A stretch of 64,000 bases of DNA from Bolinopsis microptera (Eukaryota > Ctenophora > Tentaculata > Lobata > Bolinopsidae): assembly GCF_026151205.1 (NCBI RefSeq), contig NC_087081.1, positions 11,657,113 to 11,721,112 on the forward strand, given 5' to 3'. A program made the position numbers and the translations under genes. The notes under the pieces were generated by a model, which did not search any database, was not told where the DNA came from, and saw only the letters and a program-made list of their open reading frames with translations. Of the stretch, positions 6,184-40,860 are shown piece by piece (position 1 is the stretch's first letter; each line of letters opens with the position of its first letter).

Positions 6184-6308
6184 GGGGCCATTACTTGGGA
6201 CGTCCGCCAAAACCGCCGATTTTCAGACCCCCCCCCCCCCTGTCCGTAGTGAGTGCGCCAAAACCGCCGATTTTCAGACCCCCACCCCCCCTGTCCGTAG
6301 TGAGTGCA
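6184..6308. mobile_element. PIF/Harbinger-like MITE end, truncated
   Basis: GGGGCCATTACTTGGGACGT at 6184 matches the terminal repeat of the complete element at 59932-60332, as does the following GATTTTCAGACC, poly-C and CTGTCCG. A ~54-bp internal piece (GCCAAAACCGCCGATTTTCA onward) is tandemly doubled. TAA precedes the end. The far terminus is missing. Confidence 0.7.
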
Positions 6309-6309
6309 C

Positions 6310-6640
6310 AATAAAAAATAAACTTTCTCGGATTTACAAAATTTTGGTACCATTGTTTTCTAGAGACAGAATTTTTACAGTACCAAATTTGTTATACCTT
6401 TTTGGAATGATCAGTGAGTTTCGCCTATGTGCCATAATTGATGGTGCGCGGTTTTTTGGAGCTATAATAGGTTAAATGGTAAAAGTCGCGTAATTTGACG
6501 AAATTCGTTGATTTTTACCGTATTATTCTGTCATATCTTCGGTTCCTTGAAGGAGATCATTCTGATAATTTGTGACGATCTTCCAATAGAGTTTTCACGA
6601 CTGTCCGAAAAATTTGGTGGATATCGAAGTTGATACACTT
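6310..6640. other. No feature seen
   Basis: Non-coding sequence without clear repeats, between the Harbinger-like fragment and the GC-rich element cluster. Confidence 0.3.
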
Positions 6641-6836
6641 AAAGTGATGAAAATGGGGCAAAATACGCTGCTTTTAGCTGTGACATATGTCCAATGTCTG
6701 ATGATTGGATTTGATTCACGATGTCAATCCTTCGTATCTCGCTGATCTGCATGGTTGCGAGAAGCATTATTGGATGCGCGCGCGACCCAGTATACAGTAT
6801 AGTAGTGCATATTCACGCTACAAGATTGGATATGCT

Positions 6837-6918
6837 TTGAAGGATGTTACTCTTCTAAATTTCTTCGGCAAGTGCTACGAAGTAGCGCGCGCCGGGCCAA
6901 ACCATTAGCAATGGTCAA
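6837..6918 (+). mobile_element. Mini-element family T3, copy 1 (82 bp)
   Basis: It starts TTGAAGGATGTTACTC and ends ATGGTCAA, flanked by a perfect 8-bp duplication GATATGCT at 6829-6836 and 6919-6926. It matches the T3 copy at 38709-38818. GC-rich core (GTAGCGCGCGCCGGG) inside AT-rich DNA. It has no coding capacity. Confidence 0.85.
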
Positions 6919-7071
6919 GATATGCTTTGACATTTGAATTTTCGGACACTTTCCTTGTAAGTCTATGAGTAAGCTAACTGCGATTTTCGTTAGAATTGGA
7001 TCTAGGGAAGCTTACTCAATACGCATTTGTTTCAAGAATTTTGTGCTGGCCGAAATTAGCACTAAAAATTG

Positions 7072-7152
7072 TTAACGGGTGATACTCGTAAAATATCTGT
7101 TCCGTCGACGAGTCCAACTCGGCGCGCGTCCTGGTAGGTTGTAAACCTACAA
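7072..7152 (+). mobile_element. Mini-element family T1, copy 1 (81 bp)
   Basis: Starts TTAACGGGTGATACTC and ends TAAACCTACAA. The 8-bp duplication AAAAATTG lies at 7064-7071 and 7153-7160. It contains GACGAGTCCAACTCGGCGCG and a terminal hairpin GTAGGTTGTAAACCTAC. It lacks ~20 bp present in copy 2. The right duplication overlaps the start of a T2-like sequence. Confidence 0.9.
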
Positions 7153-7157
7153 AAAAA

Positions 7158-7433
7158 TTGTCATACGTTCAACGTTGTATGACACGCCGCGCACGATTGC
7201 ACAGCTCCCCCTGTATCGTAGAAACTCTTGCTATACATTGTATGACCCGCCGCGCACGAGTGCGCGGCTCCATGTATCGTCAGGACCATAGTGAAACGAC
7301 TGTGGGGGTCGCAACGTGATACAAAGTGAAACGACCGTGGGGTTCACGACGTGATAAAAGAAACTCTACTCCACCGTAGTGAAACGACCGTGGGGGTCAC
7401 GACGACCGTGGGAGTCACGACGTGATACAAATG
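7158..7433 (+). mobile_element. Composite of broken T2 mini-elements
   Basis: Two partial T2 heads (CATTGTATGACCCGCC then the CCGCGCACGAGTGCGCGG hairpin) and three or more T2 tails (GTGAAACGACCGTGGGGGTC...CGTGATACAA) lie in tandem. This suggests repeated insertion or unequal exchange within the family. Confidence 0.7.
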
Positions 7434-7453
7434 TCATGGTGCATGGGGGTACG

Positions 7454-7559
7454 TTGCCATACGTTGTATGAGCCGCCGCGCACGAGTGCGCGGCTCCCTC
7501 TGTATCGTCGAAACTCTACACTATAGTGAAGCGACCGTGGGGGTCACCACGTGATACAA
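7454..7559 (+). mobile_element. Mini-element family T2, copy 1 (106 bp)
   Basis: Starts TTGCCATACGTTGTATGA and ends CACGTGATACAA. The perfect 8-bp duplication GGGGTACG lies at 7446-7453 and 7560-7567. The ends are imperfect inverted repeats. It contains the hairpin CCGCGCACGAGTGCGCGG. Confidence 0.9.
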
Positions 7560-7683
7560 GGGGTACGTGATTCGGAATCAGTGTCCGAAAATACATCGAT
7601 TCAAGCTGCAGTTTCAACTGTCGGGGGTCTTTTCGAATATCAACTGTAGAGTGCAATTTAGCACGCTCGATGTAAATTGCCCT

Positions 7684-7931
7684 TGACGGATGTTACTTGT
7701 AGCGCGATGCGTTAGCCGTTACTGTGCCGCGCCGCGCACTTAATGAGGCTTCTCACAGATCGGCGAGATGCGCTACTGGTTAACGGGTGATACTCGTAAA
7801 ATATCTGTTCCATATTGCATATACGGATACCGTCGACGAGTCCAACTCGGCACGCGTCCTGGTAGGTTGTAAACCTACAAGCTACTGGCTACTGTGCCGC
7901 GCCGAGCTGCGATGAATTGACATCGTCAATT
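7684..7931. mobile_element. GC-rich element T4, interrupted by a T1 element
   Basis: The ends are TTGACGGATGTTACTT and ATTGACATCGTCAA (inverted-repeat-like). It contains GTGCCGCGCCGCGCACTTAA, also found near 38480-38510 and 38980-39020 in the other orientation. A T1 copy at 7780-7880 has inserted into it. No flanking duplication was found for T4 itself. Confidence 0.55.
7780..7880 (+). mobile_element. Mini-element family T1, copy 2 (101 bp)
   Basis: Starts TTAACGGGTGATACTC and ends GTAAACCTACAA. The perfect 8-bp duplication GCTACTGG lies at 7772-7779 and 7881-7888. This is the longest T1 copy in the window. Confidence 0.93.
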
Positions 7932-8030
7932 AAGATGTTACTCGTCTAAATTTCTTCGAAGTAGCGCGCACCGTCCGAGGCAAGTGCTACAAAGTAGCGC
8001 GCACTGGGCTAGTCCATTAACAAGGGACAA
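7926..8030 (+). mobile_element. Mini-element family T3, diverged copy
   Basis: It carries the T3 head AAGATGTTACTCGTCTAAAT, two GTAGCGCGC-type blocks and a tail CCATTAACAAGGGACAA. No clean target duplication was found. Confidence 0.6.
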
Positions 8031-8371
8031 ATTATGAACCAGATACCAAGTAAAAGTATTTTGGTAAAGTACTTTTTAAACCAAAATACAAAAATCCCAT
8101 TTACGCGACTGAGGGTTATTTAGAAAATGTGCCCTGGCCCTGTAGGGATGTCTTTAGCGATACAAATTGCTTACCTAAACGATTTTGGGTCAAAATGACC
8201 TAACGAAGGACCATGTGGTCAGAAATCATATACAACGAAGTGCACACTAAACTTATACATTATATGCCCTGCTATTAGAGTAACTATTGAAGACTTCAAA
8301 GTATCATGCTAACATCATTACATTATATACTCTAACAGTAACAATTTTGAGTCTAACGGTCTACAATTTGA

Positions 8372-8464
8372 TTGTAGGTTTACAACCTACCAGGACGCGC
8401 GCCGAGTTGGACTCGTCGACGGTCCAATATATGGAACAGATATTTTACGAGTATCACCCGTTAA
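8372..8464 (-). mobile_element. Mini-element family T1, copy 3 (93 bp), proven insertion
   Basis: Reverse orientation: reads TTGTAGGTTTACAACCTACC to CACCCGTTAA on the + strand. The 8-bp duplication CAATTTGA lies at 8364-8371 and 8465-8472. The related locus at about 36030-36055 has one CAATTTGA and no insert, giving a natural empty-site comparison. Confidence 0.95.
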
Positions 8465-8585
8465 CAATTTGAATTTGTGCATAGTGTGTTTATTCATATA
8501 TTTATATATATTATACGTGGGAAGTGCTTCAGGTGTTAAAATTAAATAGAATAGCCATAACTCGAGAGAGATCCTAACAGTTTAA

Positions 8586-20646: not shown

Positions 20647-23600
20647 CTGTTCGGTTGTCAGTTTCCTCACCTAGAATGAAATCACGGTCACTTAAAGCTT
20701 TTTACAATTCTTTCACAATTGGTTTTGTAAACCTACAGTTTGAGGACCTAATTGCTTCATTTTAGGGCAATTTTTGCTCTCTAGGTTATTTGTAATTTTG
20801 CTTCCTATATTAGAGCTTAACAACGTGGTATACTGCGTCATATCACGTGATATAGGAGCTCAGGACCCCAAAATTAAGTTTTCCCTTTTGAAACGGGGTA
20901 GTGGGGCTATTTAAAGGAAATACGCCCCCCTTTCATCAAAAGGGCGAAGATTAATCTAATCAACTTAAAAAATCAATTCCAAAATTTTAGGGCAACCCCC
21001 CTTTAAGAATCATAGTTTCACAGAAACAAAACTCAAATCTGAAAGTTTGAAGGACATTTGTCAAGAAATTGTTTTTAAAAGAGTAGAGTACCCAAATTAA
21101 AAAAAAAAGCCCTGACCAAATCCCAACCCAACTGTTTTATGGGATCACGAATGACAAAACAAACAAAACCCGCTAAAAAAATAAATATAAATTAAAAACT
21201 AAAGATTTTTTAATAATATAATTTTGAAAAAATAATAAACTTTTTTTTAATTTTTGATATAAAATAAAGCCTTAATCTTTTATTTTTTACTTTTTAAAAT
21301 CTGTCCCTTTAAAAAAAGCCTCTTCACTTGGTTTTAAAAACCACGAATGACAGCTCAGAAAACTAACATTTTAAATATTATCTCGCTTGGATATGGAGAG
21401 AAAGTCATCTTTCCACGGATCTTAGGATGAAAAGTCAAATACCAAAATTTTGGTTGCAAGCAAAAATTTTAGTCGACGAAAAAGATCTTAACAATTAATT
21501 TGTGTGCAAAAAATTTGGGCGAGAGGCCCACTCAAAATTTTCGTTGCCCAAATTTTTGGGAAATAAGGTATTAAGATCGACTCACCAATTCCTTCACACT
21601 GTAGAAACACGTTTTCACTATGACCACAATCGTGTGTTAATGAATATGAACATGAATTCCAATCACCACTGCTGCATGAAACATCATTCAGGGTAGTATC
21701 ATAATTTGACTGGATGTTCCACTTTCTACCAAATGTCCAACTCATTTGACCATTGTATCCCATTTTATGACAAATAGCGTCAGCTGAGTCATCATTGAAA
21801 ATATCATTACAAACTGTTCCTCCATTGCTGATCAGCAACCCAAGAACTCCAGCGCCAACATTATGACCATTCGTATCTATTAGCCTAAACGCTGCGAATT
21901 CATTTCATTAATGATATCAACTCTAAAATCTAAATGTTTAATGATTCGTTTATTACTCCCTCTCCCTCTCCCTCTCCCTCTCCCTCTCCCTCTCCCTCTC
22001 CCTCTCCCTCTCCTCTCCCTCTCCCTCTCCCTCTCCCTCTCCCTCTCCCTCTCCCTCTCCCTCTCCCTCTCCCTCTCCCTCTCCCTCTCCTCTCCCTCTC
22101 CCTCTCCCTCTCCCTCTCCCTCTCCCTCTCCCTCTCCCTCTCCTCTCCCTCTCCCTCTCCTCTCCCTCTCCCTCTCCCTCTCCCTCTCCCTCTCCCTCTC
22201 CCTCTCCCTCTCCCTCTCCCTCTCCCTCTCCCTCTCCCTCTCCTCTCCCTCTCCCTCTCCCTCTCCCTCTCCCTCTCCCTCTCCTCTCCTCTCCCTCTCC
22301 CTCTCCCTCTCCCTCTCCCTCTCCCTCTCCCTCTCCCTCTCCCTCTCCCTCTCCCTCTCCCTCTCCCTCTCCCTCTCCCTCTCCCTCTCCCTCTCCCTCT
22401 CCCTCTCCCTCTCCCTCTCCCTCTCCCTCTCCTCTCCTCTCCCTCTCCCTCTCCCTCTCCCTCTCCCTCTCCCTCTCCCTCTCCCTCTCCCTCTCCCTCT
22501 CCCTCTCCCTCTCCCTCTCCCTCTCCCTCTCCCTCTCCCTCTCCCTCTCCCTCTCCCTCTCCCTCTCCCTCTCCCTCTCCCTCTCCCTCTCCCTCTCCCT
22601 CTCCCTCTCCCTCTCCCTCTCCCTCTCCCTCTCCCTCTCCCTCTCCCTCTCCCTCTCCCTCTCCCTCTCCCTCTCCCTCTCCCTCTCCCTCTCCCTCTCC
22701 CTCTCCCTCTCCCTCTCCCTCTCCCTCTCCCTCTCCCTCTCCCTCTCCCTCTCCCTCTCCCTCTCCCTCTCCCTCTCCCTCTCCCTCTCCCTCTCCCTCT
22801 CCCTCTCCCTCTCCCTCTCCCTCTCCCTCTCCCTCTCCCTCTCCATAATAATAAGATTGACTCACCAATTCCATCACACTGTAGAAACATGTCTCCCATC
22901 ATAATTTGACTGCTTGTCCCACTTCCAACCGGATGTCCAACTCATTTGACCATTGTATCCCATTTTACGACAAATAGCGTCAGCTGAGGAATCATTGAAA
23001 TCAATGGAGGGACAAACTGTTCCTCCATTGAAGATCAGCAACCCAAGAATTCCAGCGCCAACATTATGACCATCCGTATCTACTAAACTAAACCCTGCGA
23101 ATTCATTTCATTAATAATATCAACTCAAAATGTTTAGTGGTTCGTTTATTGATAAATAAATCCGGATTTTCAGAAACCATAGCCACCCACCCCCCCCCCC
23201 CCCTTCAGCGGTTTGTCGAAGGTCAAAAGTCAGTGTAAAAGTTGTGGCCTTAGAATTTTCATGAAGGTTCATTTTATTTCATTATGTGGCTTGTGTAAAT
23301 GAACCATTAATTCTTTCTTACGAATATACTCATTACTACAACAACAACAACAACATGGCGAACCTAGCAAGCTAGGAACGAGGGGCCGATTTCCTTTTCG
23401 TGTAGCGCTCGGCCACGTCCTTTCGGTACAGATTTCCCTGCAGCATAGTCGGGACGCTGGCCCAGGCATATGCACTCGTGTTATTTTCGCAGCTCTAATG
23501 AAAGCCACAACCATTTACACCATGGTTTGATGAGTGACGGCTGCCCTTCAGTTTTTGAGATTTTGGCCCAACGGGGATTCGAACTCGCAACCTCCAGGCC

Positions 23601-35959: not shown

Positions 35960-36106
35960 TCAAGACTTCAAGAATTTAAGGTATCATGTTAACATCATTA
36001 CATTGTACACTCTAAGTCTAAAAGTTGTGAGTCTAACGGTCTACAATTTGAATGTGCACAGAATGTGTATATTGTACGTGGGAAGTGCTTCATGTGTTCG
36101 ATAGAA
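35960..36106. repeat. Dispersed repeat R2 copy B (empty site for T1)
   Basis: Homologous to 8286-8545. GTCTAACGGTCTACAATTTG continues directly into AATGTGCACAGAATGTG, whereas copy A has a T1 element inserted after CAATTTGA. Confidence 0.85.
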
Positions 36107-37018
36107 TAGGGAGGGAGGGAGGGAGGAAAGGAGGGAGGGAGGAAAGGAGGGAGGGAGGGAGGGAGGGAGGGAGGGAGGGAGGAGGAAGGGAAGGAGGGAG
36201 GGAGGGAGGGACGGAGGGACGGAGGGACGGAGGGACGGAGGGACGGAGGGACGGAGGGACGGAGGGACGGAGGGACGGAGGGACGGAGGGACGGAGGGAC
36301 GGAGGGACGGAGGGACGGAGGGACGGAGGGACGGAGGGACGGAGGGACGGAGGGACGGAGGGACGGAGGGACGGAGGGACGGAGGGACGGAGGGACGGAG
36401 GGACGGAGGGACGGAGGGACGGAGGGACGGAGGGACGGAGGGACGGAGGGACGGAGGGACGGAGGGACGGAGGGACGGGGGGACGGGGGGACGGGGGGGA
36501 CGGGGGGACGGAGGGACGGAGGGACGGACGGAGGGACGGAGGGAGGGAGGGAGGGAGGGAGGGAGGGAGGGAGGGAGGGAGGGAGGGAGGGAGGGAGGGA
36601 GGGAGGGAGGGAGGGAGGGAGGGAGGGAGGGAGGGAGGGAGGGAGGGAGGGAGGGAGGGAGGGAGGGAGGGAGGGAGGGAGGGAGGGAGGGAGGGAGGGA
36701 GGGAGGGAGGGAGGGAGGGAGGGAGGGAGGGAGGGAGGGAGGGAGGGAGGGAGGGAGGGAGGGAGGGAGGGAGGGAGGGAGGGAGGGAGGGAGGGAGGGA
36801 GGGAGGGAGGGAGGGAGGGAGGGAGGAGGGAGGGAGGGAGGTAGGGAGGGAGGGAGTGAAGGAGGGTGGTAGGGAGGGAGGGAGGGAGGGAGGGTGGAAG
36901 GGTGGAAGGGAGGGAGGGAGGGAGGGATGGAGGGAGGGAGGGAGGGAGGGAGGGAGGGAGGGAGGGAGGGAGGGAGGGAGGGAGGGAGGGAGGGAGGGAG
37001 GGGAGGGAGGGAGGGGGG
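36107..37018 (+). repeat. GGGA / GGACGGAG minisatellite, ~910 bp
   Basis: Three zones: GGGA units with AAGG variants (36107-36210), a very regular 8-mer GGACGGAG array (about 36211-36540), then pure GGGA (36540-36825). Mixed units with GGTGGAAGG follow, shared with the array at 8586-8720. The G-rich strand is G-quadruplex competent. Long ORFs in all frames are artefacts. Confidence 0.97.
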
Positions 37019-37019
37019 A

Positions 37020-37455
37020 GCAAGTATCTCTTTTGAAAATGAAGTACCAGATAATTTCAAAATAGTCTTTCGAGGATCAAGATCAGTCCGGAAAGCCCTC
37101 TATAAAACCTGTAGAAAGACAAAGTGCTCACAGTCACTGGCCAAGTGGGAATGCCTAAAGAAAAGCTTGGAACAAATCGCTAAGTTTGCAAATCGATGAT
37201 TCATGTCCTCTGTTTGGCTGAATTGTGTCACGTGAAGCTGGAATGCGTCACGTGTGCGATCAGCATGAGCTCGCTGCAATTGCAAAGACACGATCACCTT
37301 TAGTAACACTAACACGCCCAGCCAGTAAGGTTTGCTGGGTGCAGGTTCGGAGCTTGCAGGTCAATAGTTCTCTCTACTCTGGGAGTGATTCGGAATCAGC
37401 GTCCAAAAATGATGGACGACTTAGGCTTTCTGGTTATCGTTTTTTATGAGATCAA
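37020..37455. other. Spacer with a short reading frame
   Basis: A plus-strand frame from 37020 to 37199 is Lys/Arg rich (CRKTKCSQSLAKWECLKKSL) and lacks a recognisable domain or start. Not called as a gene. Confidence 0.3.
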
Positions 37456-37463
37456 TACTTTTG

Positions 37464-37557
37464 TTAACGGGTGATACTCGTAAAATATCTGTTCCATGTA
37501 TCATGACCGTCGACGAGTCCAACTCGGCGCGCATCCTGGTAGGTTGTATACATACAA
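37464..37557 (+). mobile_element. Mini-element family T1, copy 4 (94 bp)
   Basis: Starts TTAACGGGTGATACTC and ends TGTATACATACAA. The perfect 8-bp duplication TACTTTTG lies at 37456-37463 and 37558-37565. Confidence 0.93.
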
Positions 37558-37655: not shown

Positions 37656-37785
37656 TTGTATCACGTTGCGACCCCCACAGTCGTTTCACCACGGTCGTTT
37701 CACACGGTCGTTTCACCTTTATCGTTCTGACGATACAGGGGGAGCCGCGCACTTCGTGCGCGGCGGGTCATACAACGTATGACAA
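37656..37785 (-). mobile_element. Mini-element family T2, copy 2 (130 bp)
   Basis: Inverted: TTGTATCACGTTGCGACC at the left and CATACAACGTATGACAA at the right. The GTCGTTTCAC piece is present three times, making it longer than other copies. The flanks AATACTAA and AATACTTC match at 6 of 8 positions, an aged duplication. Confidence 0.8.
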
Positions 37786-38576: not shown

Positions 38577-38692
38577 TTGTCATACGTTGTATGACCCGCC
38601 GCGCACGAAGTGCGCGGCTCCCCCTGTATCGTCACAACGATAAAGTCAGAACGACATAGTGAAACGACCGTGGGGGTCGCAACGTGATACAA
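38577..38692 (+). mobile_element. Mini-element family T2, copy 3 (116 bp)
   Basis: Starts TTGTCATACGTTGTATGACC and ends CAACGTGATACAA. Flanks TAAAGTTG (38569-38576) and AAAAGTTG (38693-38700) match at 7 of 8. It contains the hairpin CCGCGCACGAAGTGCGCGG. Confidence 0.88.
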
Positions 38693-38708: not shown

Positions 38709-38818
38709 TTGACGGATGTTACTCGTCTAAATTTCTTCGAAGTAGCGCGCGCCGCTTTAGCTTCTCGAAATGTTATGGCAAGTGCTACGAATTAGGCCAG
38801 ACCATTAACAATGGTCAA
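38709..38818 (+). mobile_element. Mini-element family T3, copy 2 (110 bp)
   Basis: Starts TTGACGGATGTTACTCG and ends AACAATGGTCAA. The perfect 8-bp duplication CTGGAGAG lies at 38701-38708 and 38819-38826. Its left duplication abuts the right duplication of the preceding T2 copy with no gap. Confidence 0.92.
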
Positions 38819-38886: not shown

Positions 38887-39025
38887 TTAACGGGTGATAC
38901 TCGTAAAATATTTAATTGACGATGTCAATTCATCGCAGCTATGCGAGGCACAGTAGCGCATCTCTGTCGTTGCGAAAAGCGTAATTGAGTGCGTGGCGCG
39001 GCACAGTAACGCATCGCGCTACAAG
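38887..39025 (+). mobile_element. Chimeric T1 head plus T4-like element
   Basis: TTAACGGGTGATACTCGTAA (a T1 start) runs into TTGACGATGTCAATTC and a GC-rich T4 body that ends CGCATCGCGCTACAA. It may be a rearranged or nested insertion; no duplication is evident. Confidence 0.5.
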
Positions 39026-39330: not shown

Positions 39331-39408
39331 TTGTCATACGTTGTATGACCCGCCGCGCACGAAGTCAAGACTATAGTGAAACGATCGTGGGGTCGCAACG
39401 TGATACAA
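39331..39408 (+). mobile_element. Mini-element family T2, copy 4 (78 bp, internally deleted)
   Basis: Starts TTGTCATACGTTGTATGACC and ends CAACGTGATACAA. The perfect duplication AGATTTTC lies at 39323-39330 and 39409-39416. Half of the hairpin is deleted. Confidence 0.9.
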
Positions 39409-39416
39409 AGATTTTC

Positions 39417-39463
39417 TTGACATACGTTGCATGCCACTTTTCGCGCGCCGTAACATGTATCAA
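39417..39463 (+). mobile_element. 47-bp T2-like derivative sharing a TSD with its neighbour
   Basis: Starts TTGACATACGTTGCATGCC and ends ACATGTATCAA, between AGATTTTC at 39409-39416 and a third AGATTTTC at 39464-39471. The arrangement is TSD-element-TSD-element-TSD. Confidence 0.8.
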
Positions 39464-39569: not shown

Positions 39570-40860
39570 GTATCTTTTATGTAAGTCAGCTACCTGTGCT
39601 TGTATTAATATTGCTTTGGTTCTCAATGGACGTTTCTAAGCAGTTGCTTGAAGTTAAAATTTGTTTATGAACAGCATTCCAAAGCTTGGCTGCATTAAAC
39701 AAAAAGGTATTTGATTTATTTAGAAGAATAACCGTTAGACTCGTTGCACGGTTTGAAATGTCGATAGCCTCATAAAGGGAGTATGGGCAGTGGTACTTGA
39801 TAATCTTTTGTATCACGTGGTGGCCCCCACTGTCGCTTTACTATAGTACTGTACACTGTAGAGTTTCGACGATACAGGGGGAGCCGCGCACTCGTGCGCG
39901 GCGGGTCATACAACATATGACAAATAATCTTAGAGAATTCTAAGATGCAGTGATATTTGTACAAGTTTTGACCCGTAAGAATTTTTAATCTATCAAAAAT
40001 GGGTTCTGTATGCTCCTTTTCAAAGTGTTTATGGTCTAATTTTTGCATACCGTATGGTCTAGTACGTACACATGCTCATTGTTTATCTAAATATGAGTCA
40101 AGGTCGCCAAAAAGGATCCTTATACAGTGCTTCTGTGTGATAAATAGACTATCATTGGACCGTTCTTTGAGGACAACACCCAAAACACTTATACCATAAC
40201 TGAGATGTGATTCAAAAAGAGCATTATATATTTTCAAATATACTTCAGAAGGTATCGAGTGCCGAATTCTCCAGATCGCAGTTTTTACAGATGTAGTGCA
40301 TATGGGCAATCCCGTTTAGCTTACTATCTATAACAACACCTAAGAATTTGGTATCCTTGACCTTAGTAATAACCTTAGTCTTACCATTGATGAATGTTGA
40401 TCTAGATTCATCTAGCAGGATAGCAAATGGTCTGGTCCGTGCACAGGTCTCATCATATTCAGAGGCAGGTTTAAAATGTATGTAGCAGCATTTGGACATG
40501 TTGATATGAAGTAGATTACATTTCATGTAAATCGAGACATGTTTAAGTACTAAGTTGGCTTTTTTGTATTTTGCTTCTCTAGATGGTCCTGATATAAAGA
40601 TATTAGTTTCATCAGCATTTAAAAGTACAAATTTCACCTATCCCTAGGACATGTTTATTGCTTGCCAGAGACTTAGTAACGGAGTCTATAGATTTGTGTA
40701 GAGCGTGGGTGGTAGAATGGCCTTTTCTAAATCCAAACTGTGAGTCTGTTAGTACACCTTTAGATGTGAAGAAATTATAGAGGCGTTTATAAATGACCTT
40801 CTCGAAGATCTTTTCAAATAAAGGTAATCGCGATATAAAGCTCTTTATTCTACCCAAACG
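39570..40860 (-). pseudogene. Dead non-LTR (LINE) reverse transcriptase fragment
   Basis: Read leftward, the frame opens with an ISRLPLFEKIFEKVIYKRL block and SQFGFRKGHSTTHAL, typical of jockey/CR1-like RT. It then jumps by internal deletion past the motif A/B region to a degenerate catalytic box (NADETN in place of the usual ADDTN). Later thumb-type blocks (LLHINMSKC, FLGVVIDSKLN, YNALFESHLSYGISVLG) and the C-terminal NAAKLWN lie in shifting frames. The 5' part of ORF2 and the endonuclease are absent. A T2 mini-element (39808-39923) interrupts the tail. Non-functional. Confidence 0.85.
39808..39923 (-). mobile_element. Mini-element family T2, copy 5, inserted in LINE ORF
   Basis: Inverted: TTGTATCACGTGGTGGCC to ACATATGACAA. 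The perfect 8-bp duplication ATAATCTT lies at 39800-39807 and 39924-39931. Dropping the element and one duplication leaves the LINE frame open across the site, which confirms the element boundaries independently. Confidence 0.95.

Follow-up and report, generated by a model that had tools for sequence, protein, structure and literature searches.

The window analyzed here, a stretch of 64,000 nt of Bolinopsis microptera contig NC_087081.1, carries two clusters of very short elements that insert as whole units and into each other, generate target duplications of 8 or 9 bp, and have been active recently. A sequence-only reading of the window had described very short mobile elements whose cores are GC-rich hairpins, and the description is borne out by searches of the genome (264,652,675 bases in 232 contigs, the window lying on contig 10). 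The families T1, T2, and T3 are joined here by a fourth, T0. Our preferred reading, to which we give a probability of about one-half, is that these are non-coding, MITE-like elements that a DDE transposase, perhaps a Mutator-like one, mobilizes in trans. The palindromic 7-3-7 termini of most of the ends are a new observation beyond the earlier reading.

Elements in two clusters of the window

In the first cluster, a backbone repeat designated B (6298..7071, plus strand) is host to T0, T3, and T1 insertions. Without inserts, repeat B measures about 600 bp, with a TAGGGGGTGCAC-type start and, in other copies, a 7-bp duplication; its 5′ boundary was shown for 6 copies and its 3′ boundary for 12 alignments, the 3′ part being unseen in the window. 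A 113-bp T0 (6711..6823, plus strand) is flanked by GATTGGAT (6703-6710 and 6824-6831), an 82-bp T3 (6837..6918, plus strand) by GATATGCT (6829-6836 and 6919-6926), and an 81-bp T1 (7072..7152, plus strand) by AAAAATTG (7064-7071 and 7153-7160). Downstream lie a rearranged tandem of T2 pieces (7158..7430, plus strand; T2 matches at 7172-7228, 7228-7324, 7360-7404, and 7403-7430) and a 106-bp T2 (7454..7559, plus strand) between copies of GGGGTACG (7446-7453 and 7560-7567). These are followed by a triple nest. The outermost element is a T3 split by T0 (7683..8030, plus strand; T3 matches at 7934-7958 and 7979-8030), the outer duplication of which is unrecognizable. The T0 within it (7697..7933, minus strand), which has its TTAATTGACG end at the right and is flanked by GATGTTAC (7689-7696 and 7934-7941), is split in turn by a 101-bp T1 (7780..7880, plus strand) flanked by GCTACTGG (7772-7779 and 7881-7888); the empty site of this T1 was located in T0. 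The last element of the cluster, a 93-bp T1 (8372..8464, minus strand) between copies of CAATTTGA (8364-8371 and 8465-8472), has identical copies elsewhere.

The cluster at 37-40 kb follows the same pattern. It comprises a 94-bp T1 (37464..37557, plus strand) with the duplication TACTTTTG; a 130-bp T2 (37656..37785, minus strand) in which neither an 8- nor a 9-bp duplication was recognized; a 116-bp T2 (38577..38692, plus strand) with an 8-bp duplication containing one mismatch; a 110-bp T3 (38709..38818, plus strand) with the duplication CTGGAGAG; a T0 (38912..39024, plus strand) that lies beside a T1 left-end fragment (38887-38911) and has a 9-bp duplication with one mismatch; a 78-bp T2 (39331..39408, plus strand) with the duplication AGATTTTC; a 47-bp T2-like element (39417..39463, plus strand) that shares AGATTTTC with the neighboring T2, such that the 8-mer is present three times; and a second 116-bp T2 (39808..39923, minus strand) with the duplication ATAATCTT.

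The five duplications previously claimed at 6829-8472 (GATATGCT through CAATTTGA) are present, exact, and directly flanking elements, and the four claimed for the 37-40 kb cluster (TACTTTTG through ATAATCTT) are likewise present and exact. Elements flanked by these named duplications start with TTA or TTG and end with CAA, or the reverse complement, as had been proposed. The T0 elements at 6711-6823 and 7697-7933 and the 47-bp element at 39417-39463 are additions to the earlier account.

Copy number, target duplications, and empty sites

Left ends were counted genome-wide, yielding 2,973 for T1, 2,485 for T2, and 2,160 for T3 (≤3 mismatches) and 3,647 for T0 (24-mer, ≤2 mismatches), while reversed-pattern controls gave 0 matches for each family. 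The total of 11,265 left ends, part of them from broken copies, corresponds to approximately one per 23 kb. Two-ended copies range from 54 to 219 bp in length and are therefore too short for transposase coding to be possible. Copies of T0 to T3 are thus short, non-coding, and present in high copy number, as MITEs require. Judging from the stiffness of DNA, such short elements would be near the lower limit for the pairing of transposon ends, and they could offer a minimal substrate for studying transposase requirements.

Target duplications were tabulated for 129 copies, namely those of 158 left/right pairs of any kind whose two ends belong to one family and have a 20-bp flank each. The underlying sample of loci is non-random, having been selected for resemblance to the cluster in the window, for perfect T1 ends (8 loci), or for perfect T0 ends (30 loci). 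An exact duplication of 8 bp was present in 43 copies and one of 9 bp in 29; duplications with one mismatch added 11 copies at 8 bp and 6 at 9 bp, and 40/129 copies were without a recognizable duplication. Among the 129 copies, no exact duplication of 6, 7, 10, 11, or 12 bp was found, and 2 were of 5 bp. When the left flank of one copy was paired with the right flank of another, matches occurred in 2/16,512 combinations at 8 bp and 1/16,512 at 9 bp; because mispaired flanks almost never match, a chance origin of the duplications is excluded. All 43 of the 8-bp sequences and all 29 of the 9-bp sequences differ within their class, and no two of the 129 copies have both flanks in common. Given 43 versus 29 exact cases, the duplication rule is 8 or 9 bp, and in these terms the fixed-length target duplication expected of MITEs is exact in 72/129 copies. 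A consistent length of 8 bp, as proposed from the window, therefore holds for the exact duplications there but not genome-wide, where both lengths occur. The mixture varies by family, with 16 exact duplications at 8 bp versus 1 at 9 bp in T2 and 18 at 9 bp versus 9 at 8 bp in T0. Outside the 8-bp duplications there is a weak symmetric preference for a pyrimidine 3 bp before and a purine 3 bp after (∼34/43 each).

Sites without the insertions were found at related loci (locus numbers carry the prefix L). L012 and L017 contain a duplicated segment, ∼66 kb apart on contig 13 and 96% identical over 1.3 kb. Two T2 insertions are present in L012, with CTCCACCC and AGTTGTAC duplicated, and each of the two target sites is single in L017, the second with one substitution. 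Similarly, the sites occupied by T0 and T3 in the window are uninterrupted in the repeat B copies of L012, L018, L049, and L021. An identical 93-bp T1 was found at three loci, where it is flanked by the duplications TCAAATTG, ATTTGGCGC, and CAATTTCT (8, 9, and 8 bp, respectively), and a further, fourth identical copy is present at L088. The empty sites and the identical T1 copies together indicate recent activity and show that a single sequence can give both duplication lengths. The sequence-only reading had allowed that the copies might turn out to be pieces of one long known element; this was checked and is ruled out by the empty sites.

The families are strongly clustered. The sequence up to 1.5 kb from 30 perfect T0 copies, amounting to 84,634 unique bp, contains 18 T1, 17 T2, and 20 T3 left ends against expectations of 0.95, 0.79, and 0.69, an excess of 19- to 29-fold, and a comparison set of 19 loci, selected through gene or transposase families, contained 1 left end in 68,565 bp. 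When only perfect ends were considered on contig 1, T0-T2 pairs no more than 3 kb apart amounted to 15/36 versus 1.2 simulated; the weakest contrast on this contig was T1-T1, at 9/68 versus 1.57 simulated (simulated maximum, 12). Of 73 bounded insertions, at least 8 are nested within another small element, in a set for which full flanks were not required and in which one copy (L047/L048) is counted twice. A further 31 junction-spanning matches, several at the same or an overlapping locus, were left out of the nesting count. Because of the nested insertions and the role of repeat B as a host, self-insertion and repeat B insertion are each considered to account for part of the clustering.

Palindromic ends and CpG-dense cores

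Most of the ends consist of TT and a 17-bp palindrome of family-specific sequence, in which 3 bases separate two complementary 7-bp arms (7-3-7). Examples are the T0 left end (GATTGAC GAT GTCAATC), the T1 right end (GTAGGTT TAC AACCTAC), the T2 left end (GTCATAC GTT GTATGAC), and the T3 right end (GACCATT GTT AATGGTC). All 7 arm pairs are formed in 45/66 copies of the T0 left end (≥6 in 63/66), which was gathered with both outer-pair forms as search patterns, in 33/41 copies of the T1 right end (≥6 in 38/41), and in 26/37 copies of the T2 left end (≥6 in 32/37). The T3 right end forms 7 of 7 pairs in 6/30 copies and at least 6 in 23/30; the main form of the T0 right end does so in 1/33 and 25/33, respectively, its consensus itself scoring 7 of 7. 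Scores are lower for the T1 left end (5 of 7 in 36/44), the T2 right end (4 or 5 in 33/36), and the T3 left end (4 or 5 in 30/37), and the palindrome is absent from the T0g right end (2 of 7 in 25/25). The nine end types therefore divide into three that are mostly perfect, two mostly at 6 of 7, three at 4 to 5, and one failing. Of the 6,161 TT positions that the window has outside the clusters, 0.08% form all 7 pairs, 0.6% at least 6, and 3.3% at least 5. Shuffled versions of the end consensus reach the observed score in 0.005 to 2% of cases for eight end types and in 72% for the T0g right end. A small fifth family (L042, 2559-2635; L047, 2766-2845) has dyad scores of 5 and 6 of 7.

Changes that keep a pair were observed at two positions. 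The outer pair of the T0 left end (positions 3/19) is G-C in 40/66 copies and A-T in 24/66, and the second pair of the T3 right end (4/18) is A-T in 24/30 and T-A in 4/30; because the copies are related, these double changes represent few independent events. The central 3 bases are mostly GAT or GTT in 7/9 end types, the remainder being the T1 right end (TAC or TAT) and the T0g right end (TTC). Only 8 to 13 of the 19 terminal bases are common to the two ends of a family, in agreement with the weak terminal inverted repeats noted previously. That the families have a terminal geometry but not a sequence in common suggests that their ends are recognized in an unusual way.

The cores are rich in CpG. 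By family, GC content ranges from 0.46 to 0.55 and the observed/expected CpG ratio from 1.44 to 1.85, the whole-window values being 0.378 and 0.75. GCGCG or CGCGC is present in 115/123 copies, at 29.8 per kb versus 0.6 in the window outside the elements; against first-order Markov expectations of 0.09 to 0.71 by family, T1 and T2 show a clear excess and T0 and T3 a modest one. DNA folding of 11 copies gave z scores from −0.09 to −7.83, so that unusually good folding of whole elements is only partly borne out.

Candidate transposases and comparable systems

The genome was searched for transposases that could act on the elements. At least 150 hAT matches are present (150 of 365 candidates were scored, all matching), and the ends were readable at 6 of 10 loci (L070-L075), where they are CAGGGGTCGACC-type (CAGGG) with 8-bp duplications, not TTR. 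Mutator (MULE) matches number 88, and three 5-kb copies were read for ends. In L079, the ends match perfectly over 14 bp and are GG rather than TTR, and the duplication is of 8 bp; L078 has GG-starting ends with 4/14 mismatches and a 9-bp duplication, a pairing that is marginal in that 3/60 simulations equalled it; and the best end pairing of L077, equalled by 21/60 simulations, is no better than chance. Merlin is represented by 58 DDE_Tnp_IS1595 matches, several with open frames of 318 to 337 aa. The sole readable Merlin locus of four, L084, fits GGCAGTCTAC ends with GGAATCAG duplicated, although its repeated subterminal sequence allows other pairings. The KDZ/Zisupton model had 0 matches in the genome, with control genomes equally silent.

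A longer, autonomous partner was sought through T ends that lead into foreign interior sequence. Using patterns that each detect about one-fifth of such cases, 7 T2-left and 12 T1-right ends of this kind were found genome-wide; of the 4/19 that were read, none led to a transposase. Three are T copies slightly altered in their interior, and the fourth (L086) is a bare 19-bp end directly beside a 91-bp tandem repeat. Within the sampled loci and the window, the long elements with T ends were only nested T copies, besides three other pairings. Two of these, in the window, were discounted, one being AT-rich and 315 bp long and the other spanning 48 kb between ends of low complexity; the third, of 1,880 bp at L051, was put down to a 1,761-bp tandem duplication (T0 hits at C1:3957378 and 3959139). 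Viral contigs gave 0 matches each for a T1 28-mer and a T2 24-mer. Coding capacity around the elements was examined in 10 of the 33 window ORFs of at least 100 aa, which gave no Pfam match at 0.01. Rfam gave 0 matches at the gathering score over the whole window, by which known RNA families, self-cleaving ribozymes included, were rejected as an identity for the elements, and no published description of them was found within the open-licence literature.

Like the sequence-only reading, we infer a transposase that acts in trans; from the duplications, it would be a DDE transposase. Such an enzyme would bind as a dimer to the terminal dyads, or to these in hairpin form, cut at TTR/YAA, and join the ends to target strands 8 to 9 bp apart, after which gap repair would create the target duplication. 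The Mutator (MULE/IS256) superfamily is the likeliest named source, the alternatives being an undescribed group or Merlin. MULEs duplicate 8 to 10 bp, a range that the 8 or 9 bp of the T elements fits. The assignment is based on the mixture of 8 and 9 bp, the presence of MULEs in the genome, and the palindromic terminal motif described for the Mutator-like element Muta1 of Aedes aegypti (PMC5225508). According to the same source, Muta1 in yeast produced duplications of 8 and 9 bp (21/60 and 39/60) with no apparent sequence preference, and it has hundreds of nonautonomous derivatives; it differs in having 145-bp TIRs and subterminal tandem repeats (PMC5225508). In the T elements, the dyad ends span 19 bp, the TIRs are weak, the length is ∼50 to 200 bp, and the termini are TTR. 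Against a Mutator source stand the GG ends of L079 versus the TTR of the T elements. The preferred reading as a whole must also accommodate the T0g right end without a palindrome, the T1 left, T2 right, and T3 left ends mostly at 4 to 5 of 7, the 40/129 copies without a recognizable duplication, and the fact that no longer element with T ends was found among the sampled loci, the window, and the 4/19 foreign-interior ends read.

The strongest rival to the Mutator assignment, although a tentative and rather unlikely one, is an undescribed transposase group that would recognize the ends mainly from the geometry of their 7-3-7 dyad or hairpin. Recognition by geometry would explain why unrelated families are alike in form and not in sequence: three end types are mostly perfect palindromes with different arm sequences and two more are mostly at 6 of 7, pair-keeping double changes occur in the T0 left and T3 right ends, four families have the same TTR ends and 8/9 rule, and the ends are unmatched by all three superfamilies of which copies were read (ten hAT loci, three Mutator copies, and four Merlin loci). 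However, the palindromes may be double-stranded dyads read by a dimer, the GAT or GTT center in 7/9 end types implies some reading of sequence, one end fails and three are weak, and the double changes may reflect very few independent events. The more specific proposal of an undescribed eukaryotic system, in which a 19-bp end (TT plus 7-3-7) is read by geometry and one machine mobilizes several unrelated elements of 50 to 200 bp, is more doubtful still. The hAT superfamily, suggested previously as a source, is now unsupported; despite numerous hAT transposases and the 8-bp duplications, hAT MITEs are very improbable. hAT elements make strictly 8-bp duplications, so the mixture, in which 29/72 exact duplications are of 9 bp, argues against them, as do CAGGGGTCGACC-type rather than TTR ends at the readable hAT loci. 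The 9-bp duplications also speak against the P superfamily, as P-type transposases duplicate 7 to 8 bp. Merlin (IS1595-type) MITEs, moved in trans by a Merlin transposase with 8- to 9-bp staggered cuts, would account for both lengths, since Merlin duplications are of 8 or 9 bp (PMC8101967), and candidate enzymes with long open frames are present. Nevertheless, Merlin termini are conserved as GG, with TIRs of 24 to 462 bp (PMC8101967), the T ends are TTR, and L084, the one of four Merlin loci that could be read, fits the GG type with its GGCAGTCTAC ends; we regard this origin as quite unlikely. Finally, the co-occurrence of the families in clusters of 1 to 2 kb and the common backbone B might suggest immobile pieces of a longer repeat or satellite, spread by recombination. 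This is barely credible in view of the independent exact duplications, the varied order and orientation, and, decisively, the empty sites.

Bacterial REPINs are units of about 100 bp that are not known to make a target duplication. They work partly like the T elements, although membership is not claimed: both are short units with two inverted palindromic repeats and compensatory changes, and some REPIN clusters arise by insertion into or beside existing copies (PMC3116915). REPINs are linked to RAYT enzymes, which are related to IS200/IS605 (PMC3116915), whereas the T elements duplicate 8 to 9 bp, in an animal genome; these duplications speak against REPIN/RAYT membership. The CMITEs of corals are also MITEs of ∼100 bp in a non-bilaterian animal, form tandem arrays, and include a case in which one insertion made a new element (PMC2872659). 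The CMITEs duplicate TTAA, have CCCTTT ends in at least some families, are linked to piggyBac, and have the internal region in common (PMC2872659), whereas the T elements have the terminal geometry in common.

In the lineage through which the T elements spread their CpG-dense cores, a GC-rich motif containing two CpGs is found at chromatin-loop anchors (PMC12221973). That this lineage is the ctenophores is indicated by an ionotropic glutamate receptor open frame of the genome, whose best PDB matches are 256-residue chains named ML032222a iGluR (237 bits; ML standing for Mnemiopsis leidyi), narrowly above the far longer kainate receptors of 900 residues (230 bits). In Mnemiopsis, more than 75% of the loop anchors have this motif, which is bound by CTEP1 and CTEP2 when unmethylated (PMC12221973). 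It is conceivable, though improbable, that the cores scattered by the T elements could be this ctenophore loop-anchor motif. Looping in placozoans and ctenophores is called transposable-element-associated by the authors of that study (PMC12221973).

Repeat B and a fifth family of small elements

Many of the small elements sit inside repeat B, a separate repeat of approximately 600 bp that was found at window positions 6298 to 7071 and in L012, L014, L018, L042, L049, and L055, loci fetched from the same genome. Its ends are TAGGGGGTGCAC and TAGGTAGTGCGC, and it is flanked by a 7-bp duplication, CCTAATC, in L049; the duplications ATATAAA (L042) and TCATCAC (L014) measure 7 bp, or 8 bp if the following T is counted.

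A fifth small family (77 to 80 bp), with ends TTACTGGGC and TTACCTGGG and flanking 8-bp duplications, is represented at positions 2559 to 2635 of L042 and 2766 to 2845 of another such locus, L047. The dyad geometry is that of the T families (TT followed by a 17-bp palindrome, 7-3-7), with 5 and 6 of 7 arm pairs matching.

Paired and partial elements

At window positions 39331 to 39463, two different elements of 78 and 47 bp have one common target, AGATTTTC, which is present three times. The pair may reflect a double insertion at the same site or a dimer with an internal deletion. On contig 1, the T0 matches at 3957378 and 3959139 (L050 and L051) are spaced 1,761 bp apart, have the same adjoining T3 and the same duplication, ACAAAAACT, and are apparently a tandem duplication. 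In locus L086 (positions 2001 to 2286), the first 19 bp of T2 alone, comprising TT and the palindrome, adjoin a tandem repeat (91-bp unit, 2.9 copies), so that T2 sequence stops precisely where the palindrome is complete.

Open reading frames

The Mutator-type transposase loci L077, L078, and L079 contain open frames of 467, 477, and 487 codons, respectively; among the three, clear ends (GGCAGTATCGAGAT, with duplication TAATATTG) were found in L079 only. In the window, long open frames overlap on opposite strands at 21880 to 22909 and 35998 to 37065, the latter stretch ending in a GGGA-type simple repeat (37001 to 37018).
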